This document shows, in pieces, positions 21,721-35,062 of a stretch of DNA of 64,000 nucleotides (the stretch's first letter is position 1; the number at the start of each line of letters is the position of its first letter). The notes beneath the pieces are model-generated. The model ran no database searches. It was not told the DNA's origin and saw nothing but the letters and a program-made list of their open reading frames with translations. The stretch is from Flavobacterium sp. J49 (GTDB lineage: Bacteria; Bacteroidota; Bacteroidia; Flavobacteriales; Flavobacteriaceae): assembly GCF_011742145.1 (NCBI RefSeq), contig NZ_JAAQQU010000105.1, forward strand, positions 1-64,000, given 5' to 3'. A program made the position numbers and the translations under genes.

Positions 21721-22146
21721 ATGGGAGAAAAAAAATCAAAACTCGTCGAAATCAAAACCAAACCCACCGAGGCCAGCGTAACCGATTTTATCAATGCGGT
21801 TCCTGATGAGCAAAAACGCAAGGACAGTTTTGTCCTTTTAGAAATGATGAAGGCCGCCACCGGAGAAGAACCGGTGTTGTGGAGCAGTTCTATCATTGGG
21901 TTTGGCAACAAGCGCTACAAGAGTCCTACCACCGGCCGAGAGGTCGATTGGCTTCTTATAGGTTTTTCACCCCGAAAGGCCAATCTGTCTTTGTACCTCA
22001 GCATAGCCATAAAAGAACAGGCAGTGGCACTCGAAAAACTGGGAAAACACAAAACCGGCGTGGGCTGTTTATACATTAACAAGCTTGACGACGTTGACCT
22101 CAAAGTACTGGAAAGAATGATAGCCACTTCGTTAAAACAAAAATAA
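21721..22146 (+). CDS. DUF1801 domain protein
   Basis: The 141-residue protein has the DUF1801 (YdhG/YjbR-like) pattern: VTDFINAVPDEQKRKDSFVL near the start, WSSSIIGFGNKRYKSPTTGR and WLLIGFSPRKANLSLYLS. It is cytosolic and of unknown biochemical function. It lies 14 bp after the PPIase gene and 6 bp before the DUF4256 gene. Confidence 0.88.
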   Translation: MGEKKSKLVEIKTKPTEASVTDFINAVPDEQKRKDSFVLLEMMKAATGEEPVLWSSSIIGFGNKRYKSPTTGREVDWLLIGFSPRKANLSLYLSIAIKEQAVALEKLGKHKTGVGCLYINKLDDVDLKVLERMIATSLKQK

Positions 22147-22152
22147 AACACT

Positions 22153-22722
22153 ATGAAAACGGATACCTCCAACCAATTGTCATCAGAGCAAACGGAACTA
22201 TTGCTCAATACCCTAAAAACCCGTTTTGAGAAAAACAAAAACCGCCACCCTAAACTGGATTGGGCAGCGGTACAAACCAAACTGTTGGCCCAACCCCAAA
22301 AACTATGGTCGCTACATGAAATGGAAAATACGGGTGGCGAACCTGATGTGGTGGGTTATGACAAAGAAACCAGCGAGTATCTTTTTGTAGACTGCGCACC
22401 CGAAAGTCCCAAAGGCCGTCGCAGCGCCTGTTATGACCGCGAAGCACAAGTAAACCGAAAAGACTTTCCGCCGCAACACAACGCTCAGGATATGGCTGCC
22501 ACTATGGGCATAAGCCTTTTAACCGAAGAACAATACCGCGCCTTGCAGGAACTGGGCAACTTTGACAGCAAAACCTCCAGTTGGATACAAACCCCACCCA
22601 ACATAAGAAAACTAGGCGGTGCCCTCTTTGCCGATTTCCGATACAACCACGTTTTTACTTACCACAACGGCGCACAGTCGTATTATGCTGCCCGAGGTTT
22701 TAGAGGGATGCTGAGAGTGTGA
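22153..22722 (+). CDS. DUF4256 domain protein
   Basis: The 189-residue protein matches the DUF4256 family: LKTRFEKNKNRHPKLDWAAV, LWSLHEMENTGGEPDVVGYD, CAPESPKGRRSACYDREA and SWIQTPPNIRKLGGALF, ending FTYHNGAQSYYAARGFRG. Function unknown. It probably forms an operon with the DUF1801 gene. Its TGA stop is followed at once by a purine-rich heptamer-like array. Confidence 0.9.
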   Translation: MKTDTSNQLSSEQTELLLNTLKTRFEKNKNRHPKLDWAAVQTKLLAQPQKLWSLHEMENTGGEPDVVGYDKETSEYLFVDCAPESPKGRRSACYDREAQVNRKDFPPQHNAQDMAATMGISLLTEEQYRALQELGNFDSKTSSWIQTPPNIRKLGGALFADFRYNHVFTYHNGAQSYYAARGFRGMLRV

Positions 22723-22727
22723 GTTGG

Positions 22728-22835
22728 GAGGTGGGGAAAAAAAGGAAAGAAGAAAGAAGAAAGAAGCAAGAAGCAAGAAGCAAGAAGCAAGAGGAAATAT
22801 AAGGTGGGGAAAAAGAGGAAAGAAGCAAGAGGAAA
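22728..22835 (+). repeat. Purine-rich heptamer array (GA arm) after the DUF4256 gene
   Basis: The + strand is almost wholly A/G. The clear core at 22755-22792 consists of AAGAAGC units repeated every 7 bp. A second short stretch (AGAAGCAAGAGG) follows near 22820-22832. It is the reverse complement of the CT arrays just downstream, separated by about 22 bp of unique sequence. Confidence 0.8.
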
Positions 22836-22857
22836 GACTAACTGCAATGAACTAAAT

Positions 22858-23004
22858 CTCACCTCTCACCTCTCGCTTCTTGCTTCTTGCTTCTTGCTTC
22901 TCGCTTCTTGCCTCTCGCTTCTCGCTTCTCGCTTCTCGCTTCTCACTTCTCGCCTCTCGCCTCTCACTTCTCGCTTCTCGCTTCTTACTTCTTACTTCTA
23001 ACCT
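22858..23004. repeat. Heptanucleotide array, 21 units (CTYRCYT on + strand)
   Basis: Twenty-one uninterrupted 7-bp units (CTCGCTT, CTTGCTT, CTCACCT and variants) run from 22858. Variation is confined to transitions at positions 3, 4 and 6. The last unit, 22998-23004, is CTAACCT, whose CTA is the TAG stop codon of the minus-strand S23 gene. In the gene's sense direction the array therefore starts directly after the stop codon and in register with it. Confidence 0.9.
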
Positions 23005-23348
23005 AACTTAACAATAAACCCATAAATCATCTTTTGAAACTCAATAATCTTATTTTCAATTTCCAAAGTTATTTCATGGGTTATGTATTTGTTTTGATTG
23101 GCTATTAACAATTGAGTTTGCAATTCAAAGGACGAACCCAGACTAATATTCAAGTAATGCTTAAAATGAACATTTCCACGGTTAGAACCCTCAGCAATAT
23201 TAGAAGCCATAGAAACCGCAGCTCTATTCATTTGACTCACTAAACCAAAAACCTCGTTCTTAGGAAAACCAAGACTAATGGTGTGGATATCAGAAGCAAT
23301 CTCCATCGACAATATCCAAATTTTAAGATTCTTAAAGTTATGCTTCAT
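22998..23348 (-). CDS. S23/bAvd-like four-helix-bundle protein (copy 1)
   Basis: The 116-residue protein is of the four-helix-bundle S23 family first known from 23S rRNA intervening sequences: NFKNLKIWILSMEIASDIHT, FGLVSQMNRAAVSMASNIAE, GSNRG, LNISLGSSFELQTQLLIA. Relatives include the bAvd accessory protein of diversity-generating retroelements, but no reverse transcriptase is in this window. It lies between two CT heptamer arrays: its stop codon is inside one, and its start is 14 bp from the other. It shares its family with the gene at 33379. Confidence 0.88.
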   Translation of the reverse strand: MKHNFKNLKIWILSMEIASDIHTISLGFPKNEVFGLVSQMNRAAVSMASNIAEGSNRGNVHFKHYLNISLGSSFELQTQLLIANQNKYITHEITLEIENKIIEFQKMIYGFIVKLG

Positions 23349-23362
23349 AATTTCTATTTTAT

Positions 23363-23495
23363 CTCACCTCTCTCCTCTCGCTTCTCACCTCTTGCTTCTT
23401 GCTTCTTGCTTCTTGCTTCTTGCTTCTTGTTTCTTGCTTCTTGCTTCTCACTTCTCACTTCTCACTTCTCACTTCTCACTTCTCGCCTCTAACTC
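23363..23495. repeat. Heptanucleotide array, 19 units (CTYRCYT on + strand)
   Basis: Nineteen 7-bp units run from 23363, dominated by CTTGCTT and CTCACTT, with one CTTGTTT and one CTCTCCT. The last unit (23489-23495, CTAACTC) begins with CTA, the TAG stop of the minus-strand DUF6266 gene, so this array too is in register with the stop codon. Confidence 0.9.
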
Positions 23496-24130
23496 ACCGT
23501 CACTGCTCCCATGTACACACTAGTAGCATAACTTTTTTCGTCGGCAGCAGCAAAGGTTATCCAGCTTTGTACTTCTAGGCCTGCAAAATATGTTGGTAAG
23601 GTAATTACACCATTGCCGCTATTGCGCAAGCCGGCGTTAAGCATATAATAGTACAAGTTTGCCGAAGGGGCATAAATTACAACTACCAGTTGGTCAGTAG
23701 CTTTGGCAGAGCCCTGCCCGGAGTTATCTGTCCAGTTATATTTTATTTCGTTAGAGCCCACTACCGATACTGTAGGATTTTGCAAGCCCAGTAAATCACC
23801 TTTAGCAATTTGCACTTTGTTGTAAATCATCTCAAAATTAGGATCTACATAAGTTACTGCTTCTTTCATGTGGTAAGACATGGCTTGGTTGCGACGGGTG
23901 AGCTCACCACTACCCGACCCATAGTAACGTGAAATCACATCGCCTATAGGCGTTAAAAATTCGCTTACTGTGGCAAACTTTTGCCTTTGTAGCATTTGCA
24001 CCTCGGTTGGGGTACGATTTGTTTTTTTGGGTAACGAACGCAATATGTCTTTACCTCTCCAACTGGCACCTACAACGGTACCAACTTTTCCTGAAAATGG
24101 GCCTAAGATGCCCTTGTTGTATGTTCCCAT
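23489..24130 (-). CDS. DUF6266 family protein
   Basis: The 213-residue protein starts MGTYNKGILGPFSGKVGTVV and continues GASWRGKDILRSLPKK, the signature opening of the DUF6266 family, which is common in Bacteroidetes and of unknown function. It has no signal peptide, and the C-terminal half is beta-rich. The family often sits among repeats and variable genes. Upstream (24131-24670) lie a 10-bp-phased array and a hairpin. Its 3' end merges into a heptamer array. Confidence 0.88.
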   Translation of the reverse strand: MGTYNKGILGPFSGKVGTVVGASWRGKDILRSLPKKTNRTPTEVQMLQRQKFATVSEFLTPIGDVISRYYGSGSGELTRRNQAMSYHMKEAVTYVDPNFEMIYNKVQIAKGDLLGLQNPTVSVVGSNEIKYNWTDNSGQGSAKATDQLVVVIYAPSANLYYYMLNAGLRNSGNGVITLPTYFAGLEVQSWITFAAADEKSYATSVYMGAVTVS

Positions 24131-24250
24131 AGTTTCTAAATTTTTTAGGGATTAGTAATCAATTTATCAGCCCATTATGGTTACTGATTAAAAGCAAAGC
24201 TATACCGGTCTTACATGCTGTGCAATAGGCTGACGGGTATTAACCTGTAT

Positions 24251-24310
24251 TGATTATTGATGACTGTATATGACTGGTAATGAATATCATTGACTATTAC
24301 TGACTAGTCA
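24251..24310. repeat. Six 10-bp units beginning TGAYT (iteron-like)
   Basis: TGATTATTGA, TGACTGTATA, TGACTGGTAA, TGAATATCAT, TGACTATTAC and TGACTAGTCA follow one another without spacers. Only the first 4-5 bases are conserved, repeating once per helical turn, which is what a cooperative protein-binding array would need. It is 120 bp upstream of the DUF6266 start and about 360 bp upstream of the 24671 gene. Confidence 0.5.
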
Positions 24311-24365
24311 AATAGCCTATTTTTACCATCGGCTTTGGAAGTTACTGGGGTATAACTTGGGTTTC

Positions 24366-24393
24366 GTTCGCAAAACAGGTGCTTTTTGCGAAC
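24366..24393. promoter_or_regulatory. Perfect 10-bp inverted repeat with 8-base loop
   Basis: GTTCGCAAAA at 24366-24375 is exactly complementary to 24384-24393, around CAGGTGCT. There is no T-tract after either arm, so an operator or recombination hairpin is likelier than a terminator. The remainder of 24131-24670 contains no gene I can support. Confidence 0.5.
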
Positions 24394-24670
24394 AGTAATC
24401 AAACAAAGCACCAATAAAAAACACCTTTTTTACGGAAAACCATAAACTTTCGCTCTCCGGGCTCGGTATTTTTATCCCATCATTTTTTATGTACCCCCCA
24501 TTTTGTTAAGAATTTTTACAATTAATTAGTGTAATAATTCCTTACTAATGGAGATTGTATATGTGTGAGAAATTTGGTATGTTTGGAATAGATAAGTAAT
24601 GATTGAATTTTATGTCATTATTATCTGTTAGTTATGAGCAATTTATTAAACCTTTGTGCTAAAAAAGAAC

Positions 24671-25168
24671 ATGCATATTAAAACTAAAATAGACGCTAAA
24701 AAATATCTAAAACTGATGTTTTCCTTGACTTACAAAAAACCATTAATAATATTGATGCATTTAATTGGAGTCGGAATGTTTATTTATTCTTTATTGTATT
24801 TTTTAGGCATTATTATCTTGGAAGAAATACCTTTAATTCCATTGATTTTTGGTTTTATCATGACTTTTATGATTCCGATTTCATTATATAAAAGTTTTAA
24901 AAAGAATTTTTTATCAAATAAAAGAATTCAAGAAACCATAGAATATGAATTTACCAATGAAAAAATGAAAATCATTGGAGAAAGTTTCAATTCTGAGCTT
25001 GAATTAAACAAAGCTCATAAAATTGTTGAGTTGAAAAACTGGTTTTTAATATATCAAAGTGAGCAAGTAGCTAATCTAATTCCAACAGAAAATCTGAATG
25101 ATAATGAAGTAAATATTTTGCGTGAAATTTTTAAAAATCAAACTAGCGTAAAATTAGAGCTAAAATAA
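24671..25168 (+). CDS. YcxB-like membrane protein
   Basis: The protein has 165 residues from the ATG at 24671 (an upstream TTG at 24656 is less likely). Two adjacent membrane helices lie at about 23-50 and 55-75. The cytoplasmic C-terminal domain reads EYEFTNEKMKIIGESFNSEL, HKIVELKNWFLIYQSEQVAN and LIPTENLN, the YcxB/immunity-like pattern. Its low GC and isolated position beside a long palindrome suggest a recently acquired cassette. Function unknown. Confidence 0.7.
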   Translation: MHIKTKIDAKKYLKLMFSLTYKKPLIILMHLIGVGMFIYSLLYFLGIIILEEIPLIPLIFGFIMTFMIPISLYKSFKKNFLSNKRIQETIEYEFTNEKMKIIGESFNSELELNKAHKIVELKNWFLIYQSEQVANLIPTENLNDNEVNILREIFKNQTSVKLELK

Positions 25169-25186
25169 ACTGCTCATAACAGCAGT

Positions 25187-25291
25187 TTGCAACAACTGCT
25201 AGGCTTGGGTTTCTCACCGAATTTTCTTCGAAAATTCAAAGCCAAGTTTGTACTTGGAATCATCAGTAATAAATCGTCGCAGCTGTTGCAA
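25187..25291. repeat. Nested imperfect palindrome, attC-like layout
   Basis: Three concentric stems are visible: 25187-25199 with 25279-25291 (12 of 13 pairs), 25204-25212 with 25238-25246 (8 of 9), and GAATTTTC 25219-25226 with GAAAATTC 25230-25237 around TTC. It begins 18 bp after the stop codon of the 24671 gene. Outer flanks CATAAC (about 25174-25179) and GTTAT (about 25302-25306) are also complementary. A 62-residue frame across it is a by-product of the palindrome. Confidence 0.55.
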
Positions 25292-25392
25292 GCCGCGGCA
25301 CGTTATTACCAATCTTCCCGTCAGTTCAATAATCTATCGCAAGTTTATATGACTTCCGCGAATATTTTCAAGTAAAAAACGACAAGGCTAAA

Positions 25393-25514
25393 ATGAATAA
25401 CAAAAGTGAGGATGTTACTTATACACAACTAATTATTGATCTTAGAGATGGTTTGAAAGTTTTGGCAAAAAAATAGAGCCTAAGGTATACGAATACGGCT
25501 TTTTGAAGAAATAA
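25393..25514 (+). pseudogene. Short frame broken at an A7 run (40-residue product if shifted)
   Basis: ATG at 25393 opens MNNKSEDVTYTQLIIDLRDG and stops after LKVLAKK at a TAG directly behind a run of seven A (about 25467-25473). A -1 shift on that run continues naturally as IEPKVYEYGFLKK and stops at 25514. This is either a small decayed gene remnant or a slippery-site gene. No family is recognised. Confidence 0.35.
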
Positions 25515-25558
25515 ATAAAAAACCTTGTCAATTTAAAAATTCTTTCAATATTTTTTCA

Positions 25559-25656
25559 GCGATTTATTTGAACCTACGGCAATTGGAGCCTGTGGTAATC
25601 AAATAAGTCGCTTTTTTTTACCCTATACCTTCACCACACACCCTAGAGCGCGTATT
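25559..25656 (+). repeat. Direct repeat copy A with internal terminator hairpin
   Basis: About 98 bp recur with roughly 90 percent identity at 27449-27548. The first part folds into a 13-bp stem (GCGATTTATTTGA with TCAAATAAGTCGC) followed by eight T, so it can terminate rightward transcription. Homology continues some 40 bp past the T-run to GAGCGCGTATT. The interval 25657-25872 otherwise holds only the inverted repeat listed next and the leader of the carbonic anhydrase gene. Confidence 0.8.
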
Positions 25657-25685
25657 TCAACCTAACATCATAAGATAACATCAAA

Positions 25686-25709
25686 TTTTTACAACATGTT
25701 TTGTAAAAA
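25686..25709. promoter_or_regulatory. Inverted repeat upstream of the alpha carbonic anhydrase
   Basis: TTTTTACAA (25686-25694) is complementary to TTGTAAAAA (25701-25709), with six bases between. It lies about 165 bp before the carbonic anhydrase start and could be a dimeric regulator site. No poly-T terminator context beyond the arms. Confidence 0.35.
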
Positions 25710-25872
25710 TAGAAACACAGCTTAAACAAAATATAAAAAAAACATAAATAATCAGCGTGCAACTCAGTAAACACTAAAGCTGTAAAAATTTCTGCCATCA
25801 TGATGAATGTATTTATTTAAAAACTAAATATTAAATTTATATTTTCGCCAAAACAAAAACAAAACAAGAAAA

Positions 25873-26643
25873 ATGAAAAAAAAATATTTTACAAAAAGCG
25901 TTACAGCGTTACTTTTTGCTGTTCTCTTACTAGGTTGTACCGAAGAAGGAAAAATTGAAAAACATTCTCCTCACTGGGATTATGAAAACCCCATTTGGCA
26001 AAACGTTGGTTATACAGATTGTGGTGGAACAGTGCAAACACCCATTAATATCCAAACCGGTAGCACCATTCAGTCTTCACAATTATCAGAAGTAATGTTT
26101 AATTACAACCCTTTCAACATGAAAATTGTTGATAATGGTCACACTGTACAAGTAAATACCGACAATGCAATCACAAACAATATAAGCATTGACGGGGTTA
26201 CTTATAATTTTTTACAATTTCACTACCATACACATAGTGAACACGAAATTGATGGAAATACCGATCAAATGGAGATTCACTTAGTACACCAAGACCCTGT
26301 AACCAGTAATCTTGCGGTTATTGCTATCATGCTTAATGCAACCAGTGCAACTGATAATACCTTTATACAATCTTATTTGCAAAACTTCCCAAGCGAAGAA
26401 GATATAGAGGTAGCCACATCTACAAGTTTAAACCTAAATGCCATATTACCGGCAAACAAAAATTATTATACATACACGGGTTCACTTACAACACCTCCAT
26501 GTAGCCAAGGTTTAAAATGGATTATTCTCAAAGAAAAAATGGCCGTTTCTTCTAGTCAACTCAATGCCTTTCAAGAACGACATGATATCAATGCAAGACC
26601 AATTCAACCACTAAACGGTAGAATTGTATTAGAAAAAATATAA
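25873..26643 (+). CDS. Alpha-class carbonic anhydrase, lipoprotein
   Basis: The 256-residue protein has a lipoprotein signal (AVLLLGCTEEGK). Alpha-CA features are HWDYEN near the start, QTPINIQT, the zinc-ligand region FLQFHYHTHSEHEIDGN with the third His in MEIHLVHQD, and YTGSLTTPPCSQGLKWIIL. It hydrates CO2 in the periplasm. It is 3 bp from an outer-membrane beta-barrel gene, and the pair is flanked by ~100-bp direct repeats. Confidence 0.93.
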   Translation: MKKKYFTKSVTALLFAVLLLGCTEEGKIEKHSPHWDYENPIWQNVGYTDCGGTVQTPINIQTGSTIQSSQLSEVMFNYNPFNMKIVDNGHTVQVNTDNAITNNISIDGVTYNFLQFHYHTHSEHEIDGNTDQMEIHLVHQDPVTSNLAVIAIMLNATSATDNTFIQSYLQNFPSEEDIEVATSTSLNLNAILPANKNYYTYTGSLTTPPCSQGLKWIILKEKMAVSSSQLNAFQERHDINARPIQPLNGRIVLEKI

Positions 26644-26646
26644 TTT

Positions 26647-27336
26647 ATGAAAAAGTTATTTTTTCTAATTTGCTTCATTTGTTCAACAACTGTAGTAATG
26701 GCTCAGGACACACCACAAAGCAATACCGAAACAAGCAATATTGAGCTAAGATTTTCAAGCGGGTTAGTATTTCCCCTTGGTGATATTAAATCCTCACAAA
26801 ACGAATCATTTGGTATGGCAAAAACAGGATACAAAGCTACAATAGACTTTGCCTATAAATTCAAAAACAATTTTGCAGCCGTTATGATTGTTGATTATAC
26901 GACGCTAGGAACCGATGCAGATAAAATAGCCAAATCCATTTTAGACGCTAATCCTTCCTACAACAGCGTAGAAGTTAAAAGTGGTAACTATTCCGTTTTA
27001 TCTCTATTAGTCGGGGGCAATTACACCATCAATTTAAGTTCACATTTTTTTATTCAAGGTCAGCTGGCTTTAGGCTTGGCTACTATCAAAGGACCCGAAA
27101 ATGAAATAACGGTCAGTAGCGCTTCACCATTTGAAGAACTTAAATCAGCAGGAACAGTAAATGCACTCGCTTATCAAGGTAAAGTTTCAGTAAACTACAA
27201 CATCAATACCCCTTTGGCAATAGGATTGTATACCAGCTATTACGAAACAAACCCTACCTTTGAAATAGAAAACAGTTCAATTAAGCAAAAATTAAACAGC
27301 ATGTCTACAGGCCTGCAACTCACCTATAAGTTATAG
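26647..27336 (+). CDS. Outer-membrane beta-barrel protein
   Basis: The 229-residue protein has a signal peptide (MKKLFFLICFICSTTVVMAQ) followed by alternating amphipathic strands (IELRFSSGLVFPLGDI; NFAAVMIVDYTTLG; FFIQGQLALGLATI; PLAIGLYTSYYETNP) ending L-T-Y-K-L, as in small OmpX/OmpA-like barrels. It starts 3 bp after the carbonic anhydrase stop, so the two are cotranscribed. A specific role in inorganic carbon or pH is inference from context only. Confidence 0.8.
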   Translation: MKKLFFLICFICSTTVVMAQDTPQSNTETSNIELRFSSGLVFPLGDIKSSQNESFGMAKTGYKATIDFAYKFKNNFAAVMIVDYTTLGTDADKIAKSILDANPSYNSVEVKSGNYSVLSLLVGGNYTINLSSHFFIQGQLALGLATIKGPENEITVSSASPFEELKSAGTVNALAYQGKVSVNYNINTPLAIGLYTSYYETNPTFEIENSSIKQKLNSMSTGLQLTYKL

Positions 27337-27448
27337 CGTAAGTAAGCTAACACAAAGGTGCAAAACCGTACTGCTTGTTCAGTAATGTTTTTGCTAAGCA
27401 TCATATTGAACTTATATCTATTTTTTTAGAATTTTATTAAAATATCCG

Positions 27449-27548
27449 GCGATTTATTTGAACCTACGGCAATTGTAGCCTATGTACCATCAAATAAGTC
27501 GCTTTTTTTTATACCCTATACTTCACTACACACCCTAGAGCGCGTATT
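27449..27548 (+). repeat. Direct repeat copy B with internal terminator hairpin
   Basis: This is the second copy of the repeat at 25559, about 112 bp after the barrel gene. The 13-bp stem and T8 are conserved; most differences lie in the loop. The two copies enclose 1.8 kb containing the carbonic anhydrase and barrel genes. Confidence 0.8.
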
Positions 27549-27576
27549 GGCAATCTGCGACTACATACCCCTGTAT

Positions 27577-27607
27577 TAAAAAACAACAGCCCCGTTTCCG
27601 AGGCTGT
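27577..27607 (-). terminator. Terminator of the HTH gene (minus strand)
   Basis: ACAGCC (27586-27591) pairs with GGCTGT (27602-27607), extended by an inner CG pair. The A-run at 27578-27583 gives the T-tract on the minus strand. Confidence 0.75.
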
Positions 27608-27631
27608 GTCTAGTGGTATTTGATAAAAAAA

Positions 27632-27922
27632 TTAATTGGTTTTGTCGTCAAACCGTTTTGAAGGGTCGTCGGGTTTTGTAATACTATTGAGTACCTCTTG
27701 GGTAAAAAAGTGTTTAGGATAAAGATAGCTCCGCCCTACCAGTACACAAGGTACCGAACCGTTTTTACGCAATCGGTACAACTTAGCAGGACTGCACCTA
27801 AGCAGTTTCTCCATGGCATGGCTGTCTAAAAAGTCCTCTTCTACTACAGGCTTTGATACTTCTAGCAAAGCCCTTAAGTCGAGTATGGCCTTTAATAAAA
27901 TTTGAAATTCCTTGCTGCTCAT
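27632..27922 (-). CDS. Excisionase-like helix-turn-helix protein
   Basis: The 96-residue protein has a helical N-terminus and a MerR/excisionase-type winged helix: AMEKLLRCSPAKLYRLRKNG, then SVPCVLVGRSYLYPKHFF. The pattern of residues after the turn is that of HTH_17 DNA-binding proteins, which often accompany integrative elements. No integrase is in the window, so it may be a remnant or an ordinary small regulator. It has its own terminator. About 120 bp upstream begins a purine-rich repeat arm. Confidence 0.75.
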   Translation of the reverse strand: MSSKEFQILLKAILDLRALLEVSKPVVEEDFLDSHAMEKLLRCSPAKLYRLRKNGSVPCVLVGRSYLYPKHFFTQEVLNSITKPDDPSKRFDDKTN

Positions 27923-28039
27923 AGGTTACGTTTTAAGTTAGACTTGGGCAGTAATACATAATTTGTAAGCTAATCTATACAAAGTAAATATAATATGCAA
28001 GAAAATAGGTGTAATTTTTTTCTTAACTACTTTAAAGTC

Positions 28040-28097
28040 TAAGAAGAGGAAAGAGGAAAGCAAGAAACAAGAAGCAAGAAGCAAGAGGAAAAAAAAG
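28040..28097 (+). repeat. Purine-rich heptamer arm (GA arm) facing the 36-unit CT array
   Basis: The run GAAGAGGAAAGAGGAAAGC followed by CAAGAAACAAGAAGCAAGAA is the reverse complement of the CT array type. It is separated from the CT array at 28119 by about 21 bp, so the two can fold into a long hairpin. No plus-strand gene ends here. Confidence 0.75.
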
Positions 28098-28118
28098 ACA
28101 AACACCACTAAACCGCTT

Positions 28119-28370
28119 CTTGCCTCTCGCCTCTCACCTCTCGCCTCTCGCCTCTTGCTTCTCGCCTCTTGCTTCTCGCCTCTCGCCTCTTGCTTCTCGC
28201 CTCTTGCTTCTCGCCTCTTGCTTCTCGCCTCTCGCCTCTCGCCTCTCGCCTCTTGCTTCTCGCCTCTTGCTTCTCGCCTCTCGCCTCTTGCTTCTCGCCT
28301 CTCGCCTCTTGCTTCTCGCCTCTTGCTTCTCGCCTCTCGCCTCTCGCTTCTCACCTCTCGCTTCTCACCT
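28119..28370. repeat. Heptanucleotide array, 36 units (CTYRCYT on + strand)
   Basis: Thirty-six uninterrupted 7-bp units, mainly CTCGCCT and CTTGCTT, run from 28119 to 28370. The next three bases, 28371-28373 (CTA), are the TAG stop codon of the minus-strand amylase gene, in the position a 37th unit would occupy. All six frames across the array give Leu/Ala/Ser-rich peptides with a 7-residue period, which are translation artefacts. Confidence 0.92.
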
Positions 28371-30167
28371 CTACCTCCTACTAAGCACCACTAAATTCAT
28401 CGGCTCAATAGTAACTGTTTTCATTACTTTATTAGAAAAAACCTCTTTAAATTTATTAGTTTTCAAAAGTTCATTTGTAAAGTTCACGGGCTTATCTGAA
28501 CGATTGATGCATACAAGCACTTCTTCGCCTTGGTATTTTCGGCTAAAAACATAGAGTTTTTGGGCATCATCTTTTGCAATGGTAGTGTAGTTGCCTAGTT
28601 GGATAGACTTGTAGTTATTGCGCAACACCATAAACTTTTGATACCAGTTATACAAATCCTTATTAAAAGCTACAGCATCGGGTTCATGAGTACTTTGGTC
28701 AGGGTTGTAAGTTTCGGCATCATAGGTTTTGTCGTCCCATACCATTGGTTTGCGACAGTCAGGATCATTGCCTCCCCAAATTCCGGCTTCGTCTCCATAA
28801 AAAATCATAGGCGATCCCAAATACAACATTTGGAAAGCAGCAATTAGTTTTTGTTTTTGAACCTGGGCTGCGGTTGGTTTTCTGGCATTGTACTCTTTGT
28901 TATTGCTTTTTTGACTCCAATTAAAATAAGCGCCCCAATCCCCAAACTTCTTACCGTCAGGATTGGCGACAGCGCTGGCTAATCGGGTAGCATCGTGACT
29001 GTTCATCAGGTTTTGCATATTCAGCGCTACATCGTTTCCAAAAGCTTCCCTTAGTGTTGCCAATTGGGCATCAAATTGTGTTACGGTAGAAGCCAATTTA
29101 TCTTGAATAAAAAAATCATGTACTATAAAAGCAAAATTGTAATTCATGGTGGCATCAAACTCATCACCTTCAAGATAAGGTCTTGTTTTTTCTATTGGAG
29201 ACACCAGTTCGGCAGTCATATAAGCTGTAGGGTTGATACTGCGTACCCATCGACGCCAGTCTTTCCAAAAAGGATGTCCAACATCATAAGCAACATCCAA
29301 GCGCCAACCGTCAATACCATCTTGAATTCCTTTATCCATAGGATTCATCCAGCGTTTGGTGGCGTTGAAGATATACGCTTTGGGTCCGGCTACTATGCCT
29401 TTCTCATCCTCTTTGAACTCGGGTAAGGTTTTTACACCAAACCACCCTTTGTATTGAAAGGTAGTTCCTTTTGCGGGATCGTCCCAACTATCGATAGAAA
29501 ACCAGTCACTATAGGCAGAAGCCTGTTGGTTTTTTTGAACATCCTCAAAAGCAAAACTTTTCATTCCCATGTGGTTAAATACACCATCAAAGATGATACG
29601 CATATTGCGGGCGTGAACTTCCTTAATCAGTTTTAATGCCAAGAGATCGGCTTTGGTCCATACCCAGCTTTTAACATCTAGTGGATTTTCGTTTTTCATC
29701 ATCGCCACATCACCTTCAGGATCAGGCCCAAAGGTAGGATCAACGTGATGGTAACAAAGTGCATCGTATTTATGTGAAGAAGGCGACCAAAAAATTGGAG
29801 TCAGATAGATTGCATTAACCCCAAGTGATTTGATATAGTCTAATTTATTGATGATGCCTTGCAAGTCACCACCGTAGCGACGACGCTGAAGATTATAGTA
29901 TAGGTCTTTCCCATTCTGTTGCTCATATGGCTGTAGCTGATACCAATCACTTGTCCAAGGATGAATTTGAAACGCTGAAGTATCATCAAAAGGATAGGCG
30001 CCATTTTGGTCGGTTACTTTAGGATCATTGGTTGGATCACCGTTGTTAAAGCGCTCCGGGAATATTTGGTACCAAATGATTCCTTTACTCCACTCGGGTG
30101 TAAATTTTGACTGCGAGTTGGCAACTATTGAAAAGAGAATTACAAGTGAGAAGTAAAAAGATTTCAT
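28371..30167 (-). CDS. Secreted GH13 alpha-amylase-family enzyme
   Basis: The protein has 598 residues from the ATG at 30167, which begins a good signal peptide (MKSFYFSLVILFSIVANSQS); an in-frame extension to 30242 is less likely. The GH13 catalytic regions are visible: DGVFNHMG (region I), DGWRLDVAYDVG with the nucleophile Asp (region II), MTAELVSP with the acid/base Glu (region III) and MNSHDATR (region IV). The N-terminal IIWYQIFPERFNNGDP is typical of neopullulanase/cyclomaltodextrinase-type enzymes. It probably degrades alpha-glucans in the periplasm or outside the cell. No SusCD genes adjoin it. Confidence 0.92.
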   Translation of the reverse strand: MKSFYFSLVILFSIVANSQSKFTPEWSKGIIWYQIFPERFNNGDPTNDPKVTDQNGAYPFDDTSAFQIHPWTSDWYQLQPYEQQNGKDLYYNLQRRRYGGDLQGIINKLDYIKSLGVNAIYLTPIFWSPSSHKYDALCYHHVDPTFGPDPEGDVAMMKNENPLDVKSWVWTKADLLALKLIKEVHARNMRIIFDGVFNHMGMKSFAFEDVQKNQQASAYSDWFSIDSWDDPAKGTTFQYKGWFGVKTLPEFKEDEKGIVAGPKAYIFNATKRWMNPMDKGIQDGIDGWRLDVAYDVGHPFWKDWRRWVRSINPTAYMTAELVSPIEKTRPYLEGDEFDATMNYNFAFIVHDFFIQDKLASTVTQFDAQLATLREAFGNDVALNMQNLMNSHDATRLASAVANPDGKKFGDWGAYFNWSQKSNNKEYNARKPTAAQVQKQKLIAAFQMLYLGSPMIFYGDEAGIWGGNDPDCRKPMVWDDKTYDAETYNPDQSTHEPDAVAFNKDLYNWYQKFMVLRNNYKSIQLGNYTTIAKDDAQKLYVFSRKYQGEEVLVCINRSDKPVNFTNELLKTNKFKEVFSNKVMKTVTIEPMNLVVLSRR

Positions 30168-30389
30168 TGGATTTATTTTTATCTTTCCAAATATACAGTA
30201 TTTGAGCGGCTGTTTCGTATTACCTTTTTCAGAGGGAAGCAAAAAGACAAACAGTACCTCGCAACTAAAACCTCTTGTCTAATTCTTTACACCTCTTGTC
30301 ACACACATTCCTCCTTTTATCTTTTGTTTCTTTATTAAAAAAAATTAATATTTTTTACTATATAGTATGCATGCATAATATATTTTTAT

Positions 30390-30397
30390 TATCTTTG
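30390..30397 (+). promoter_or_regulatory. Canonical Bacteroidetes -7 box for the MarR gene
   Basis: TATCTTTG matches TAnnTTTG and lies 25 bp before the MarR start codon. It serves as a contrast to the stress-type sites, which lack this box. Confidence 0.65.
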
Positions 30398-30422
30398 AAA
30401 TCGTTATAGTAAAATTTTAGGT

Positions 30423-30854
30423 ATGAAAGACAAAACTATAGATTATATACTCCGCGCTACTTGGCAAGCCGTTGCCCGCATGTACAATGAAGAAGCCTCC
30501 AAGTTTGAAGGTTCAATGGCAATAGGGTTTGCACTGCTGAGCATCGATAAAGAAGAAGGAACTCCTTCTACTTTTATCAGTTCGCGCATGGGCATGGAAG
30601 CCACCAGCCTAACCAGAACTCTTAGAACTTTAGAAGAAAAAGGTTTAATCATTCGCAAGAAAAACCCCGAAGACGGTCGTGGTGTACTCATTTACCTAAC
30701 TGATTTAGGCAAACAAATGAGAGAACAGTCTAAAATTACCGTATTAAAATTTAATGAAGTGGTGAAGCAAAATATTTCAGAAGAAAAGTTACAGCACTTC
30801 ATAGAAGTAGCGGATACTATCAATGATTTAATCGCAGAGAAGAAGATTTTTTAA
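30423..30854 (+). CDS. MarR-family transcription regulator
   Basis: The 143-residue winged-helix regulator contains FALLSIDKEEGTPSTFISSR, MGMEATSLTRTLRTLEEKGL (recognition helix) and KKNPEDGRGVLIYLTDLGK (wing). It immediately precedes the beta-oxidation genes on the same strand. It probably represses them and itself and is released by an acyl-CoA or fatty acid; the ligand is inferred. Confidence 0.9.
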   Translation: MKDKTIDYILRATWQAVARMYNEEASKFEGSMAIGFALLSIDKEEGTPSTFISSRMGMEATSLTRTLRTLEEKGLIIRKKNPEDGRGVLIYLTDLGKQMREQSKITVLKFNEVVKQNISEEKLQHFIEVADTINDLIAEKKIF

Positions 30855-30874
30855 ATGAATAAAAAACAGACAAA

Positions 30875-30929
30875 AGATAATAGACAGAGAGATTATAGAT
30901 CAAATCCGTAAAAACAAAGTCTATCATCT
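30875..30929 (+). promoter_or_regulatory. Inverted repeat between the MarR gene and fadB
   Basis: AGATAATAGAC (30875-30885) and GTCTATCATCT (30919-30929) are complementary except for one position. The spacing is long for a MarR dyad, so a leader hairpin is equally possible. The purine-rich left part (GATAATAGACAGAGAGATTA) also has a loose AG-ending rhythm like the heptamer arrays. Confidence 0.35.
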
Positions 30930-30950
30930 ATTTTCATTAACAAAAAACAT

Positions 30951-33341
30951 ATGAAACGAACCATTAAAAAAGTGGCAGTAGTAGGTTCAGGAATCATGGG
31001 TTCCGGAATTGCATGTCATTTTGCTAACATTGGTGTGGAAGTTTTGCTTTTGGATATTATTCCAAATGCCCTAACCGAAGCCGAAGAAAAGAAAGGATTG
31101 ACACTAGAGAGTAAAGTTGTTCGCAACCGTTTGGTCAACGATCACTTGGCTAATGCCTTAAAGTCAAACCCATCGCCTATTTACAGTCAGAAGTTTGCTT
31201 CCCGAATCACAACCGGTAATACCACTGACGACATGGCTAAGATTGTCAACTACGATTGGATAATCGAAGTAGTTGTTGAGCGTTTAGACATCAAGAAATT
31301 AGTATTCGAGCAAATCGACCAATACAGAAAACCGGGAACTTTAGTAACTTCAAACACTTCAGGTATTCCGATTAAGTTTATGAGTGAAGGCCGAAGCGAA
31401 GATTTCCAGGCGCATTTTTGCGGAACGCACTTCTTTAATCCGGCGCGCTATTTAAAGTTATTCGAAATCATTCCGGGACCAAAAACATCTAGTGAAGTAC
31501 TAGACTTCTTGTTTGACTATGGTTCTAAATATTTAGGCAAAACTTCGGTCGTGGCCAAAGATACTCCGGCGTTCATAGGCAACCGCATCGGTATTTTCGG
31601 AATCCAAAGCTTATTCCATTTGGTCAAAGAAATGGATTTGACCATAGAAGAAGTAGACAAGTTAACCGGTCCGGTAATCGGGCGTCCAAAGTCGGCTACG
31701 TTCAGAACGGTTGATGTCGTTGGTTTAGATACTTTGGTACACGTAGCGAACGGTATCTATGAAAACTGCCCAACCGACGAAGCGCACGACCTATTCAAAC
31801 TGCCTGATTTCATCAACAAAATGATGGAAAACAAATGGCTAGGCAGCAAAACCGGTCAGGGTTTTTATAAAAAAGTAGACAAAGACATCTTGTCTTTAGA
31901 TTTAAATACACTAGAGTACAGAGCCGCTAAAAAAGCGTCATTCGGTACTTTAGAATTGACTAAAACCATTGATAAACCTATTGATAGATTCAAGGTTTTA
32001 GTAAAAGGCAAAGACAAAGCCGGCGAATTCTACAGAAAAAACTTCTCAGCCATGTTTGCTTATGTGTCCAACAGAGTTCCGGAAATCACAGACGACTTCT
32101 ACAAAATAGACGACGCCATGAAAGCCGGCTTCGGTTGGGAAAACGGACCATTCGAAATATGGGACGCTATCGGCGTAGCCAAAGGAATCGAATTAATGCA
32201 AGCCGAAGGGTATCAACCTGCCGCTTGGGTAAACGAAATGTTTGCTTCAGGAAGCACTAGTTTCTACACCGTGAAAGAAGGCGCTACTTATTATTACAAC
32301 ATTCAAACCAAATCGCAAACCAAAGTTCCGGGACAAGACAGTTTCATTATTCTAAACAATATTCGTGAAAGTAAGAAAGTTTGGAGCAACAGTGGTGCTG
32401 TAATTCATGATTTAGGTGATGGTATCTTAAACCTTGAATTCCAGTCAAAAATGAATACCATAGGTGGTGACGTTTTGGTCGGAATCAACAAAGCCATCGA
32501 CTTAGCCGAAAAACAATACAACGGATTAGTGATAGGAAACCAAGGCGCTAATTTCTCTGTCGGTGCCAATATCGGAATGATTTTCATGATGGCAGTCGAG
32601 CAAGAATATGACGAACTGAATATGGCCATAAAAATGTTCCAAGACACCATGATGCGTTGCCGCTACTCTTCTATTCCGGTCATCGTTGCGCCACATGGCA
32701 TGACTTTAGGCGGTGGTTGCGAAATGACGATGCATGCCGATAAAGTGGTAGCTGCAGCAGAAACGTATATCGGTTTGGTTGAATTCGGTGTCGGTGTAAT
32801 TCCGGGCGGCGGCGGTTCAAAAGAAATGACTTTAAGAGCTTCTGACCTATTCCGTAAAAACGATGTAGAGCTAAATGTTCTTCAAGAATACTTTCTGACA
32901 GTGGCAATGGCAAAAGTGGCTACTTCAGCTTACGAAGCTTTTGACATGGGCGTATTACAAAAAGGAAAAGACATCGTGGTGGTTAATAAAGACCGTCAAA
33001 TAGCCGAAGCCAAGAAACACGCTTTGTTAATGGCAGAAGCCGGTTATACGCAACCCATCCAAAGAAAAGATGTGAAAGTTCTAGGCAAACAAGCCTTAGG
33101 GATGTTCTTAGTCGGAACCGACCAAATGGTCGCCGGAAAATACATTTCAGAACACGATCAAAAAATCGCTAACAAACTGGCATACGTTATGGCAGGTGGT
33201 GATTTGTCTGAACCAACTTTAGTGTCTGAACAATATTTGTTAGATATCGAAAGAGAAGCGTTCTTATCCCTTTGTACCGAAAGAAAAACATTGGAGAGAA
33301 TTCAGTTTATGTTAACCAAAGGAAAACCGTTGAGAAATTAG
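30951..33341 (+). CDS. fadB: Bifunctional 3-hydroxyacyl-CoA dehydrogenase/enoyl-CoA hydratase
   Basis: The 796-residue protein starts with an NAD-binding fold (VAVVGSGIMGSGIACHFA), 3-hydroxyacyl-CoA dehydrogenase N- and C-domains (AHFCGTHFFNPARYLKLFE; KDTPAFIGNRIGIF; ENKWLGSKTGQGFYKK) and ends with an enoyl-CoA hydratase/isomerase domain (GLVIGNQGANFSVGANIG; GMTLGGGCEMTMHAD). The order is reversed compared with E. coli FadB and is normal for Bacteroidetes. It carries out the two middle steps of fatty-acid beta-oxidation. The TAG stop is followed in register by TATTAAG heptamers. Confidence 0.93.
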   Translation: MKRTIKKVAVVGSGIMGSGIACHFANIGVEVLLLDIIPNALTEAEEKKGLTLESKVVRNRLVNDHLANALKSNPSPIYSQKFASRITTGNTTDDMAKIVNYDWIIEVVVERLDIKKLVFEQIDQYRKPGTLVTSNTSGIPIKFMSEGRSEDFQAHFCGTHFFNPARYLKLFEIIPGPKTSSEVLDFLFDYGSKYLGKTSVVAKDTPAFIGNRIGIFGIQSLFHLVKEMDLTIEEVDKLTGPVIGRPKSATFRTVDVVGLDTLVHVANGIYENCPTDEAHDLFKLPDFINKMMENKWLGSKTGQGFYKKVDKDILSLDLNTLEYRAAKKASFGTLELTKTIDKPIDRFKVLVKGKDKAGEFYRKNFSAMFAYVSNRVPEITDDFYKIDDAMKAGFGWENGPFEIWDAIGVAKGIELMQAEGYQPAAWVNEMFASGSTSFYTVKEGATYYYNIQTKSQTKVPGQDSFIILNNIRESKKVWSNSGAVIHDLGDGILNLEFQSKMNTIGGDVLVGINKAIDLAEKQYNGLVIGNQGANFSVGANIGMIFMMAVEQEYDELNMAIKMFQDTMMRCRYSSIPVIVAPHGMTLGGGCEMTMHADKVVAAAETYIGLVEFGVGVIPGGGGSKEMTLRASDLFRKNDVELNVLQEYFLTVAMAKVATSAYEAFDMGVLQKGKDIVVVNKDRQIAEAKKHALLMAEAGYTQPIQRKDVKVLGKQALGMFLVGTDQMVAGKYISEHDQKIANKLAYVMAGGDLSEPTLVSEQYLLDIEREAFLSLCTERKTLERIQFMLTKGKPLRN

Positions 33342-33778
33342 TATTAAGACTACAGTATTAAGTATTAAGACATAGAGTATGCACAATTTCGAGAAATTAA
33401 AAATATGGCAAAAAGCAATGGATATTGCTGTTGAAGTTTATGAAGTTTCATTGCTTTTGCCCAATGATGAAAAATTTAATTTAATTCATCAAATTAAAAA
33501 ATGTGCAGTATCTATTCCCTCTAATATTGCTGAAGGTTCCGGAAGAAATCATGACAAGGAATTTGTTCAATTTTTAGGAATTGCAAATGGCTCAACATTC
33601 GAATTAATAACGCAATTAATTCTAGCTAAAAGATTAAAACTTATAAACGAAGAAACAGCACAACCCATAATTAATCAATTGGTAGAAGTTTCAAATATGA
33701 ATTTCTCCTTTCAAAAAACATTAAAATCATAATCAAGCGATTGGAAAGTCTTAATACTTAATACTCCAATCTTAATAC
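33341..33778 (+). mobile_element. IVS-like cassette: S23 gene between 31-nt inverted repeats
   Basis: 33341-33371 and 33748-33778 are inverted copies: 9 paired bases, a 4-by-4 mismatch, then 18 perfectly paired bases (33354-33371 with 33748-33765). Each arm is built of heptamers: TATTAAG, a variant, TATTAAG, TATTAAG. The 438-bp segment contains only the S23 gene and separates fadB from fadA. The left arm begins on the last base of the fadB stop codon. Layout matches 23S rRNA intervening sequences (ORF in the loop of a long stem); mobility is inferred. Confidence 0.55.
33379..33732 (+). CDS. S23/bAvd-like four-helix-bundle protein (copy 2)
   Basis: The 117-residue protein is of the same family as the gene at 22998: NFEKLKIWQKAMDIAVEVYE, LIHQIKKCAVSIPSNIAEGS, GRN and LGIANGSTFELITQLILAKR. 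The spacing to fadB (37 bp) and fadA (53 bp) is occupied by inverted heptamer repeats. Known relatives bind nucleic acid or partner with reverse transcriptases; neither is testable here. The insertion would make fadA expression depend on transcription through the hairpin. Confidence 0.9.
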   Translation: MHNFEKLKIWQKAMDIAVEVYEVSLLLPNDEKFNLIHQIKKCAVSIPSNIAEGSGRNHDKEFVQFLGIANGSTFELITQLILAKRLKLINEETAQPIINQLVEVSNMNFSFQKTLKS

Positions 33779-33785
33779 AAAAAAT

Positions 33786-34967
33786 ATGAAAACAGCATAC
33801 ATAGTAAAAGCATACAGAACCGCCGTCGGCAAAGCCCCAAAAGGAGTTTTCCGTTTCAAACGTCCCGATGAGTTGGCTGCCGAAACCATTCAGTACATGA
33901 TGAATGAACTACCTGATTTCGACAAAACAAGAATAGATGACGTCATGGTAGGAAATGCCATGCCTGAGGCGGAGCAAGGATTAAACGTGGCGCGTTTGAT
34001 TTCGTTAATGGGATTAAAAGTAACCGATGTTCCTGGCGTAACTGTAAACCGTTATTGCGCTTCCGGAGTAGAAACCATTGCCATGGCTACTTCAAAAATC
34101 CAAAGTGGTATGGCAGATTGCATCATCGCCGGCGGTGCCGAAAGTATGAGTTTTATTCCAATGGGCGGTTATAAACCTACACCTGATTATGCAGTGGCCA
34201 AAGAAGGAAACGAAGATTACTACTGGGGAATGGGTTTAACGGCTGAAGCGGTAGCCAAACAATTCAACGTATCTCGTGAAGACCAAGATGAATTTGCATT
34301 GAATTCACATTTAAAAGCCATCAAAGCGCAAGCAGAAGGCAAATTCGACAAACAAATTGTACCGATTACTATCGAACAAACCTTTATCAATGAAAATGGT
34401 AAAAAAGAGACCAAATCATACACTGTAACCAAAGACGAAGGACCAAGAGCCGATACCAATGCGGCTGCTTTAAGCAAATTGCGTCCGGTTTTCGCTGCCG
34501 ATGGTAGTGTAACGGCCGGAAACTCTTCACAAATGAGCGACGGAGCTGCTTTTGTCTTAATCATGAGCGAGGAAATGGTCAAAGAACTCAACCTCACGCC
34601 TATCGCCAGAATAGTAAGTTATGCTGCTGCCGGTGTAGAACCAAGAATCATGGGAATCGGACCAGTGAAAGCCATTCCGAAAGCATTAAAACAAGCAGGA
34701 TTGACATTAAACGATATTAATTTAATTGAATTAAACGAAGCCTTTGCTTCTCAGGCTTTAGCGGTTACTCGCGAATTAGGTATCAATCCTGATATCGTTA
34801 ATGTAAATGGTGGTGCAATTGCTTTAGGACATCCGTTAGGTTGTACCGGAGCGAAACTTTCCGTGCAACTATTTGACGAAATGAAACGCCGCGGTGACAA
34901 GTATGGAATAGTTTCTATGTGCGTCGGAACCGGACAAGGTGCGGCAGGAGTTTATGAAGTGTTATAA
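33786..34967 (+). CDS. fadA: Acetyl-CoA C-acyltransferase (3-ketoacyl-CoA thiolase)
   Basis: The 393-residue thiolase has the nucleophilic Cys91 in [35 protein letters not shown] with the catalytic His, and Cys379 in [11 protein letters not shown]. It performs the last, thiolytic step of beta-oxidation. It would normally directly follow fadB; here the S23 cassette intervenes. Confidence 0.94.
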
Positions 34968-34986: not shown

Positions 34987-35062
34987 TTGTCATTCCGACG
35001 AAGGAGGAATCTAATAAACTGAGGAACAATTTGATGAGATTCCTCCTTCGTCGGAATGACAA
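34987..35062. repeat. 26-bp perfect inverted repeat between fadA and the acyl-CoA dehydrogenase
   Basis: 34987-35012 and 35037-35062 are exact reverse complements of 26 bases, separated by 24. The arm core reads GTCATTCCGACGAAGGAGG. Closely similar GTCATTCC-type palindromes recur as dispersed repeats in many bacterial genomes (from general knowledge, not checked). In the mRNA it would be a very stable hairpin 20 bp after the fadA stop and 39 bp before the next start. Confidence 0.85.

Follow-up and report, generated by a model that had tools for sequence, protein, structure and literature searches.

Arrays of 7-bp repeats begin at, and in register with, the TAG stop codons of four genes of Flavobacterium sp. 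J49. What are these arrays, and why do they begin there? They lie in the window, the whole stretch of 64,000 nucleotides analyzed here (contig NZ_JAAQQU010000105.1, positions 1 to 64,000). A first-pass annotation had suggested a process that seeds or grows heptamers from the 3′ ends of coding regions. Our comparisons point to a different answer: each array is probably an arm of a small S23/IVP element or, in one case, of a copy that lacks S23.

Heptamer arrays and S23 genes in the window

Direct reading of the window confirmed where the four arrays lie, how many units they have, that they follow TAG stops, and that they are in register. S23 gene 1 (22,998–23,348, minus strand; type A, MKHNFKNLKIW...) ends in a TAG at 22,998–23,000, within the unit AGGTTAG. 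From this stop runs a 3′ array of 140 bp with 20 ARGYRAG units (22,858–22,997, minus strand). A 5′ array of 127 bp with 18 ARGYRAG units (23,362–23,488, minus strand) extends from the stop of the upstream DUF6266 gene (23,489–24,130, minus strand; PF19781, E = 1.5e-44) to the start of S23 gene 1; the DUF6266 stop, TAG at 23,489–23,491, is also in array register (unit GAGTTAG). An inverted arm of AAGCAAG units on the plus strand (22,742–22,800) is the partner of the 3′ array (RNA fold z = −6.0). Together these parts form putative element 1. The third array, 252 bp with 36 ARGYRAG units (28,119–28,370, minus strand), follows an alpha-amylase family gene (28,371–30,242, minus strand; PF00128) with its stop at 28,371–28,373 (unit GAGGTAG). 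It has an inverted arm at 28,040–28,092 on the plus strand (fold z = −1.9) and is regarded as a putative S23-less element.

The array behind fadB (3-hydroxyacyl-CoA dehydrogenase; 30,951–33,341, plus strand; PF02737/PF00725; stop TAG at 33,339–33,341, unit AAATTAG) is indeed distinct in sequence from the ARGYRAG arrays, reading TATTAAG, ACTACAG, TATTAAG, TATTAAG. This 5′ arm (33,342–33,378, plus strand) leads into S23 gene 2 (33,379–33,732, plus strand), which is followed by a 3′ inverted arm of the CTTAATA type (33,749–33,778, plus strand). The two arms pair in the predicted RNA fold with the S23 ORF in the loop (z = −4.9), forming putative element 2. The first-pass annotation had overlooked S23 gene 2, which lies immediately 3′ of the fadB array, the inverted arms of all three structures, and the fact that arrays flank S23 gene 1 on both sides.

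The period-7 arrays were also detected by TRF. Certain units in the ARGYRAG runs are degenerate. Across the 3.05 Mb of the genome, triple ARGYRAG had 66 matches, of which 65 lay at 22,764–28,370 of the window contig, whereas the reversed control had 0 matches in the same genome, indicating that the ARGYRAG arrays did not arise by chance. A strict scan for periods 5–11 covered 464 kb, consisting of the window and a 400-kb sample of the same genome that contains none of its other S23 places. It returned 11 tracts, all of period 7 except one of period 10; the fadB array was too short for its threshold. Ten of the 11 were intergenic: eight window arrays, a period-7 tract starting 2 bp past a TAA stop, and the period-10 tract. 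No Rfam family reached its gathering score in 22,000–34,500.

The products of S23 genes 1 and 2 passed the PF05635 gathering cut-off of 33.8 with 107.3 and 129.7 bits, respectively. PF05635 is S23/IVP, the ORF of 23S rRNA intervening sequences (IVS). The AF2 model of the gene 1 product (pLDDT 95.7) has a four-helix-bundle fold with a TM of 0.93 to 2gsc, the product of the Xanthomonas S23 gene XCC0516. It also resembles, with weak E-values, Avd of diversity-generating retroelements (4dwl and 8ub7; TM about 0.8, Foldseek E 0.05 and weaker). Only gene 2 hit NF033474 (DivGenRetAVD), with E = 2.3e-5 and 24.6 bits, below the cut-off of 80. A resemblance of PF05635 to Avd is also described in the cited part of PMC10053308. 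Unlike a diversity-generating retroelement, the genome of strain J49 has no RVT_1 reverse transcriptase match (0 found), and a reverse-transcriptase mechanism was rejected on that ground. A phage origin was also rejected: S23 gene 2 had no match in phage records, and a pattern-based viral-contig scan confirmed none. PADLOC returned no defence-system match for either S23 protein.

Element anatomy and stop-codon register across S23 loci

S23/IVP matches were present in 146 of 150 genomes of the genus and 157 of 198 of the class. The family search counts nine in strain J49, where eight S23 loci were viewed. All eight lay, as judged by eye, amid repeats of 6–8-bp period with locus-specific units, and five exceeded the inverted-arm threshold (5′ flank scored against the reverse-complemented 3′ flank, exceeding the 99th percentile of shuffles). 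The analysis was extended to 210 S23 loci, which were best-scoring or hand-picked matches rather than a random draw, 66 of them sharing one site. The threshold was passed by 128 of the 210 and failed by 82, whereas only 2 of 154 control genes passed. A laxer periodicity score was positive for 157 of the 210 loci, but also for 40 of the 154 controls. Mispaired arms were tried as a null for local alignment, with own arms above the 95th percentile in 96 of 210 loci; this null was inflated by loci of one site, and shuffles and control genes took its place.

Own arms co-folded better than mispaired ones (median −16.5 vs −3.3 kcal/mol, n = 88, p = 5e-23), and 45 of the 88 fell under the 5th percentile. 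Of 207 arms, drawn from 114 of the 210 loci, 43 were strongly periodic, with none in shuffles; the period was 7 in 20 of them and 8 in 21. The 5′ arm was richer in G than the 3′ arm in 90 of 99 cases. S23 was in sense and flanked by co-directional genes at 197 of the 210 loci, or 55 of 68 site clusters. Twelve of 24 S23 plasmid records were examined, two of them near-identical loci; seven passed the inverted-arm score, and heptads were visible by eye in 11.

Genes upstream of S23 were enriched in TAG stops (84/204 vs 63/323, p = 1e-7). The phase of the AG in the unit relative to the stop was examined in 232 arms, and period-7 arms after TAG with a clear AG phase were counted. Phase 0 was found in 39 of 56 such arms and in 17 of 29 distinct site–phase combinations (p = 4e-8). 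Period-7 arms that follow TAA most often had phase 1, giving TAAG (10/27). The first-pass annotation had named uniform phase as a refutation, and period-7 arms do not show it; arrays that start at stop codons and in register with them thus occur well beyond the window. Among period-8 arms no phase was clearly preferred (phase 0 after TAG in 8 of 32). A comparison of all three stop-codon bases with the unit (TAG mean 1.59 of 3, n = 17; TGA 1.88, n = 8; TAA 0.82, n = 33) involved fewer arms than the AG-phase test.

These features outline an element that consists of a 5′ arm of 7–8-bp units, an S23 ORF encoding a four-helix bundle, and a 3′ arm complementary to the first in inverted orientation. 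The 5′ arm is usually G/A-rich, with units often ending in AG, and begins at the upstream stop, often in register. The element usually lies in sense within an operon, and therefore its arms could pair in the mRNA as a long stem that loops out the S23 ORF, as in the 23S rRNA IVS. S23-less copies, such as that after the amylase gene, would be non-autonomous derivatives.

Arm sequence, S23 subtype, and the fadB–fadA site

Arms at different sites were compared by S23 identity. They were alike in 8 of 9 pairs at ≥75% identity, a set drawn from few loci in which one pair is a tandem pair in a single locus and three join sites either side of fadB; the corresponding values were 10–12% of sampled pairs at 55–75% identity and about 1% below 55%. 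Likeness also held between MAGs labeled as different phyla. Arms of type A relatives are AGAAGCAAGA-like and those of type B mostly ATAGARN. Genome-wide array counts followed S23 type (MWU 1.5e-4 and 2.9e-4). For triple ARGYRAG the link to S23 type is a correlation: the triple was present in 10 of the 17 genomes with type A, in 3 of the 10 with type B, and in 7 of the 51 without types A–C. ATAGARN arrays likewise occurred in 8 of the 17 type A genomes, one of which had the highest count (52), and in 21 of the 51 genomes that lack all three types. S23 gene 1 is at the DUF6266 gene here, and its counterpart is located after fadA in the 16 type A relatives viewed. Arm sequence thus tends to track S23 subtype, not host gene, with exceptions. 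Growth of heptamers from coding ends as such is not supported, because the arrays flank S23 genes, have inverted partners, and tend in sequence to follow S23 subtype.

For the fadB–fadA site, 59 loci were obtained and three dropped (L076, L082, and L302, in which either a complete fadB frame or a fadA start could not be found). Of the remaining 56, 14 were empty, 12 held S23, and 30 were filled without S23. The S23-less hairpins, classed by eye, agreed with the S23 type of their genome in every genome counted (9 of 9, and 3 of 3). This count leaves out six fills in genomes without type A or B and concerns hairpins, some mixing units, that lie no more than about 2 kb from the S23 gene, so that linkage may explain it. 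From the 14 empty sites no target-site duplication could be defined, and no S23 element copy was seen to move at the loci examined.

Arrays might also arise without any element, if slippage expanded a heptamer near the stop and template switching in a quasi-palindrome complemented the second arm, with S23 as a passenger. The highly variable unit number, the stop codon in array register, and the difference between species in the arms at a single site are as expected from such mutation, and at fadB–fadA some 3′ arms close with the complement of TTGAGAA, the coding end of the host gene (an exact match in L074, 6 of 7 bases in both L070 and L094, no match in L091). However, mutation alone is an unlikely source given the rarity of inverted arms at control genes, the strong sense orientation of S23 loci, the restriction of all but two of the 43 strongly periodic arms to periods 7 and 8, and the tendency of arms to track S23 subtype across sites, including MAGs of different labeled phyla. 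Slippage and template switching may still multiply units inside an element.

We give a similarly low probability to host regulatory hairpins that would act in operons on mRNA stability or downstream attenuation, with S23 as a domesticated regulator binding them. S23 is under purifying selection (dN/dS 0.12; 80 pairs, 12 sites), the loci are in sense in operons, and fadB–fadA is filled in 42 of 56 loci, which favors this reading. Yet the hairpins are patchy at the same site (empty in 14 of 56), the host genes viewed are functionally unrelated, heptads vary among relatives, and fadB–fadA also holds other palindromes (L090, L317, and L319).

REP/BIME palindromes, which lie near gene ends around a small RAYT transposase gene and also occur without it, are alike in layout, but here the arms are tandem heptads of varying sequence, and they enclose an S23 gene instead of one for a Y1 transposase. 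Movement of MITE/REP palindromes by a known transposase such as a Y1 (RAYT-like) protein is very improbable, since the genome's one Y1_Tnp match, from a transposase search limited to that family, lies amid unrelated palindromes of the AATCCCTAACGGGATT type without heptads.

An S23/IVP element, resembling an IVS but located in mRNAs at stop codons, remains the preferred reading. Its anatomy, period, inverted arms, sense orientation, and stop register are evident from sequence, as are the statistical association of arms with S23 subtype and the purifying selection on S23. The S23 protein, with its Avd-like fold, most likely recognizes the heptad of its own subtype and may help spread or maintain elements at unit-like stop sequences, TAG or TAAG. 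We infer that the stem may be cleaved by RNase III and that the elements may be mobile.

Relation to known heptamers and meaning for the S23 family

The first-pass annotation knew of no described mechanism, but a close precedent exists in the 23S rRNA IVS of Coxiella burnetii. As described in the cited part of PMC4990558, it contains an S23 ORF with tandem GACAGAT heptamers ahead of it, in two or three sets by strain, and its terminal inverted repeats pair as a stem of 28 bp. It is called a selfish element there, RNase III cutting its inverted arms for excision, and its S23 protein is presumed not to be made. Element 2, by its predicted fold, and the 128 loci above the inverted-arm threshold likewise place S23 between inverted arms able to form a stem. 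Unlike that IVS, the window elements lie at stops between protein genes and not in a 23S rRNA gene, and our set combines tandem arms on either side of the ORF with S23-less copies, many S23 subtypes, and S23 proteins under purifying selection.

G-rich heptamers of Xanthomonas (GGGAATC) and Nostoc/Anabaena (GGGGAYT), described as G-quadruplex repeats, share the period of 7 and the position between co-aligned genes and are mostly transcribed (PMC4692102, cited in part). Two Xanthomonas genomes have 70 and 75 inverted pairs, and Anabaena GGGGAYT has few, with none on plasmids; the part of PMC4692102 cited mentions S23 zero times. The published Coxiella and Xanthomonas heptamers appear to fit an S23 element well, and those of Nostoc partly. 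The cyanobacterial repeats, offered earlier as the nearest analogy, may be more than that: S23 genes on cyanobacterial plasmids adjoin heptad arrays. TAACTGA heptamers of Beggiatoaceae, cyanobacteria, and Bacteroidetes are intergenic and direct, mostly just 5′ of start codons in two to six copies. A stop codon is overlapped by 13 of the sets, the main genome has a single inverted case, and some Bacteroidetes and cyanobacteria carry long arrays; the passages cited make no S23 link (PMC4679880).

S23/IVP has so far been known mainly from rRNA genes and is little studied, with no function given in the cited parts of the literature; heptamer repeats have repeatedly been reported without a cause. 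A link between them suggests what S23 probably acts on and where the repeats probably come from. The link is testable: cognate and non-cognate heptads are natural controls, and relatives have empty, S23-filled, and S23-less versions of a site. More tentatively, S23/IVP could define a phylum-spanning and so far unrecognized class of small mRNA mobile elements whose subtypes recognize their own 7–8-nt unit and in trans place or maintain S23-less hairpins in stop register, and the heptamers of cyanobacteria, Xanthomonas, and Coxiella could be products of the same system. The arms of S23 elements may thus also explain unexplained heptamer repeats elsewhere in bacteria.

Heptamer arrays and S23 genes of the genome

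The first-pass annotation had claimed that four heptamer arrays in the window begin at TAG stop codons and in register with them. Direct reading of the sequence confirmed this, as well as the positions and unit numbers of the arrays. S23 gene 1 (22998–23348, minus strand), which encodes a PF05635 protein known from the ORF of 23S rRNA intervening sequences (IVSs), was flanked on both sides by ARGYRAG arrays, with an inverted arm (22742–22800) past the second array. Missing from that annotation was a second S23 gene (33379–33732, plus strand), located directly 3' of the fadB array and followed by an inverted arm, CTTAATA (33749–33778). The ARGYRAG array after the alpha-amylase stop (28119–28370, minus strand) also had an inverted arm (28040–28092), without an S23 gene. 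In RNA folds, the arms of the fadB element paired, so that the loop held the S23 ORF (MFE −97.1 vs −69.5, sd 5.6, in shuffles; z = −4.9). The 3' array and inverted arm of the DUF6266 element also paired (z = −6.0). The fold of the amylase array stood out less from shuffles of its own, repetitive sequence (z = −1.9; 4/100 shuffles equally stable).

Triple ARGYRAG had 66 matches in the genome, 65 of them within 22764–28370 of the window contig; the reversed control had 0. A strict scan for tracts of periods 5–11 covered 464 kb, namely the window and a 400-kb sample of the genome containing none of its remaining S23 places. It gave 11 tracts, all of period 7 except a single period-10 tract. Ten were intergenic, eight of them in the window, and the period-10 tract was among the other two. 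The remaining one, an S23-less array outside the window, started 2 bp past the TAA stop of a gene whose C-terminus was named by eye as biotin carboxyl carrier protein-like. Other tandem repeats in the window were a 228-bp unit at its edge (1–917; 4.0 copies, 92% matches) and two overlapping long ORFs (5262–5568, 63-bp; 58697–58798, 39-bp).

Eight S23 places were found in the genome by protein search and nine by family search. By eye, all eight loci viewed sat among short-period repeats of differing units (ARGYRAG, TATTAAG, RAGGNNCT, AAAGTAGC, GTCGGTT, AAGGGAT-like, a hexamer and TCGGTTC-like). Five passed the inverted-arm score; the arrays of the other three (L001, L004 and L007) were direct or degenerate.

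Inverted arms and S23 subtypes across genomes

We surveyed 210 distinct S23 loci, taken from the genus, its class and named genomes and having flanks of at least 200 bp either side; they were best-scoring or hand-picked matches rather than a random draw, and 66 came from one shared site. When the 5' flank was compared with the reverse-complemented 3' flank, the match exceeded the 99th percentile of dinucleotide shuffles at 128/210 loci (30/68 when counted per site cluster) and at 2/154 neighbouring control genes. A laxer periodicity score marked 157/210 loci and 40/154 controls, and either criterion marked 185/210 and 41/154. Because the laxer criteria also mark many controls, weak arms are individually indistinguishable from background. 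Strong periodicity was found in 43 of 207 arms from 114 loci and in no shuffles; the period was 7 in 20, 8 in 21, and 9 and 12 in one each. Mean skew was +0.40 for the G-rich 5' arms and −0.32 for the C-rich 3' arms, the 5' arm being the more G-rich of the two in 90/99. With neighbours assigned by ORF length alone, both were co-directional with S23 at 197/210 loci (55/68 site clusters). The median dN/dS of S23 within sites was 0.12 (80 pairs, 12 sites), and the protein therefore appears to be kept functional. In locus L068 a pair of S23 genes is separated by about 545 bp, and ACATCGA heptads lie both in the gap and outside the pair, possibly a tandem duplication of an element.

Arms at different sites were alike in 8/9 sampled pairs with S23 identity of at least 75%, which draw on few loci (one is the L068 pair and three compare either side of fadB), in 10–12% at 55–75% identity, and in about 1% below 55%. 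S23 gene 1 is a member of subtype A (M[KR]HNFKNLKIW). All 16 relatives of this type that were viewed have the gene 3' of fadA, mostly with AGAAGCAAGA-like arms. Here it lies about 12 kb from fadA, at DUF6266, and fadA is instead followed by a different palindrome (34989–35061), GTCATTCCGACGAAGGAGGAATC and its inverse, which among 393 loci was confined to the locus covering that place. The sister subtype B (RHNYKNLKIW) mostly occupies the same site after fadA, with mostly ATAGARN arms.

Eighteen S23-less fills of the fadB–fadA gap within the genus were classed by eye; six, whose genomes had neither type, were set aside. CAAG units occurred in 9/9 fills of type A genomes and 0/3 of type B genomes, which had ATAGA units instead (p = 0.0045); an ATAG unit also opened four of the nine. 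The S23 gene is linked within about 2 kb, and the match to type may reflect this linkage. Across 81 genomes, triple ARGYRAG was present in 10/17 with type A, 3/10 with B, 0/3 with C and 7/51 with none of these. The figures for triple ATAGARN were 8/17, 8/10 (median 20.5 matches), 1/3 and 21/51. Counts differed by type, type C excluded (MWU, ARGYRAG 1.5e-4, or 5e-4 without this genome; ATAGARN 2.9e-4). The specificity is not absolute: the top ATAGARN count, 52, belongs to a type A genome (G009).

Stop codons and array phase

The upstream gene ended in TAG at 84/204 S23 loci vs 63/323 other ORFs (p = 1e-7; site-weighted 25/62, p = 1.5e-4). Phase was scored in 232 arms, including the window arrays and 30 S23-less fadB–fadA fills, and counts refer to arms with one clear AG phase. 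After TAG, 39/56 period-7 arms had their AG ending at phase 0 relative to the stop (17/29 distinct site-phase combinations, p = 4e-8). After TAA, phase 1 (TAAG) was most frequent (10/27; 7/23 distinct, p = 0.04), and the eight TGA arms had no clear mode. Period-8 arms had no clear preference (TAG phase 0 in 8/32, 2/11 distinct). At ARGYRAG loci elsewhere, phase 0 was found in 4/12 for which the upstream gene was identified.

Of 59 fadB–fadA loci, 56 were classed. Fourteen were empty (11 TAA, 3 TAG), 12 carried S23 (TAG in 11) and 30 were filled without S23 (TAG in 26), so that the stop codon differed between filled and empty sites (p = 8e-6, uncorrected for shared ancestry). A few fills were palindromes of other kinds (L090, L317 and L319; CCCCCTAACCCCC type and others), so this site attracts or tolerates several kinds.

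A proposed IVS-like element in mRNAs

The structure model of S23 gene 1 matched the S23 structure 2gsc (TM 0.93) and the DGR protein Avd, alone and in the ribonucleoprotein (TM about 0.8; Foldseek E-values of 0.05 or weaker). Given this modelled Avd-like fold, RNA binding by S23 is plausible. RVT_1 had no match in the genome. A Y1 transposase was rejected as the mover: the only Y1 (RAYT-like) match of the genome (L393) is surrounded by other, AATCCCTAACGGGATT-type palindromes, apparently a REP family of its own. The S23/Avd fold, the lack of RVT_1 and the different palindromes at Y1 led us to propose an IVS-like element that would reside in mRNAs. Its S23 protein probably recognises the heptad, and the element would likely be excised, by analogy with rRNA IVSs. 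Arm length was probably shaped by slippage and template switching.

Published heptamer work agrees in part with this S23-element reading. The Coxiella rRNA IVS combines heptamers 5' of S23p with a 28-bp stem, which is cleaved by RNase III, although the authors consider its S23p unexpressed (PMC4990558). Xanthomonas heptamers are described as lying just past stop codons (sense) or just before genes (antisense), many in inverted pairs; those of Anabaena have few inverted pairs and were not found on Anabaena plasmids, and S23 is unmentioned in the excerpts of that paper (PMC4692102). TAACTGA heptamers are described as lying mostly ahead of start codons (PMC4679880). Plasmid S23 matches were mostly cyanobacterial (19/24 records). 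Among 12 plasmid loci, heptads were seen by eye in 11 (units CAGGGAA, AAAAGCT, GGGTGTA, GGGAAAA, GGTGACA and GTCAGAA), and seven passed the inverted score. The AAAAGCT unit is repeated about 13 times, in direct orientation on either side of S23, between cas6 and cas4. S23 with heptad arrays lies between these CRISPR operon genes on Pseudanabaena and Anabaena plasmids (L326, 1501–1860; L331, 1477–1845).

Among the matches listed from the open PMC set, no paper linked heptamer arrays with S23 genes other than those in rRNA. The known kind here is the IVS element, and a wider class may lie behind the S23/heptad elements.
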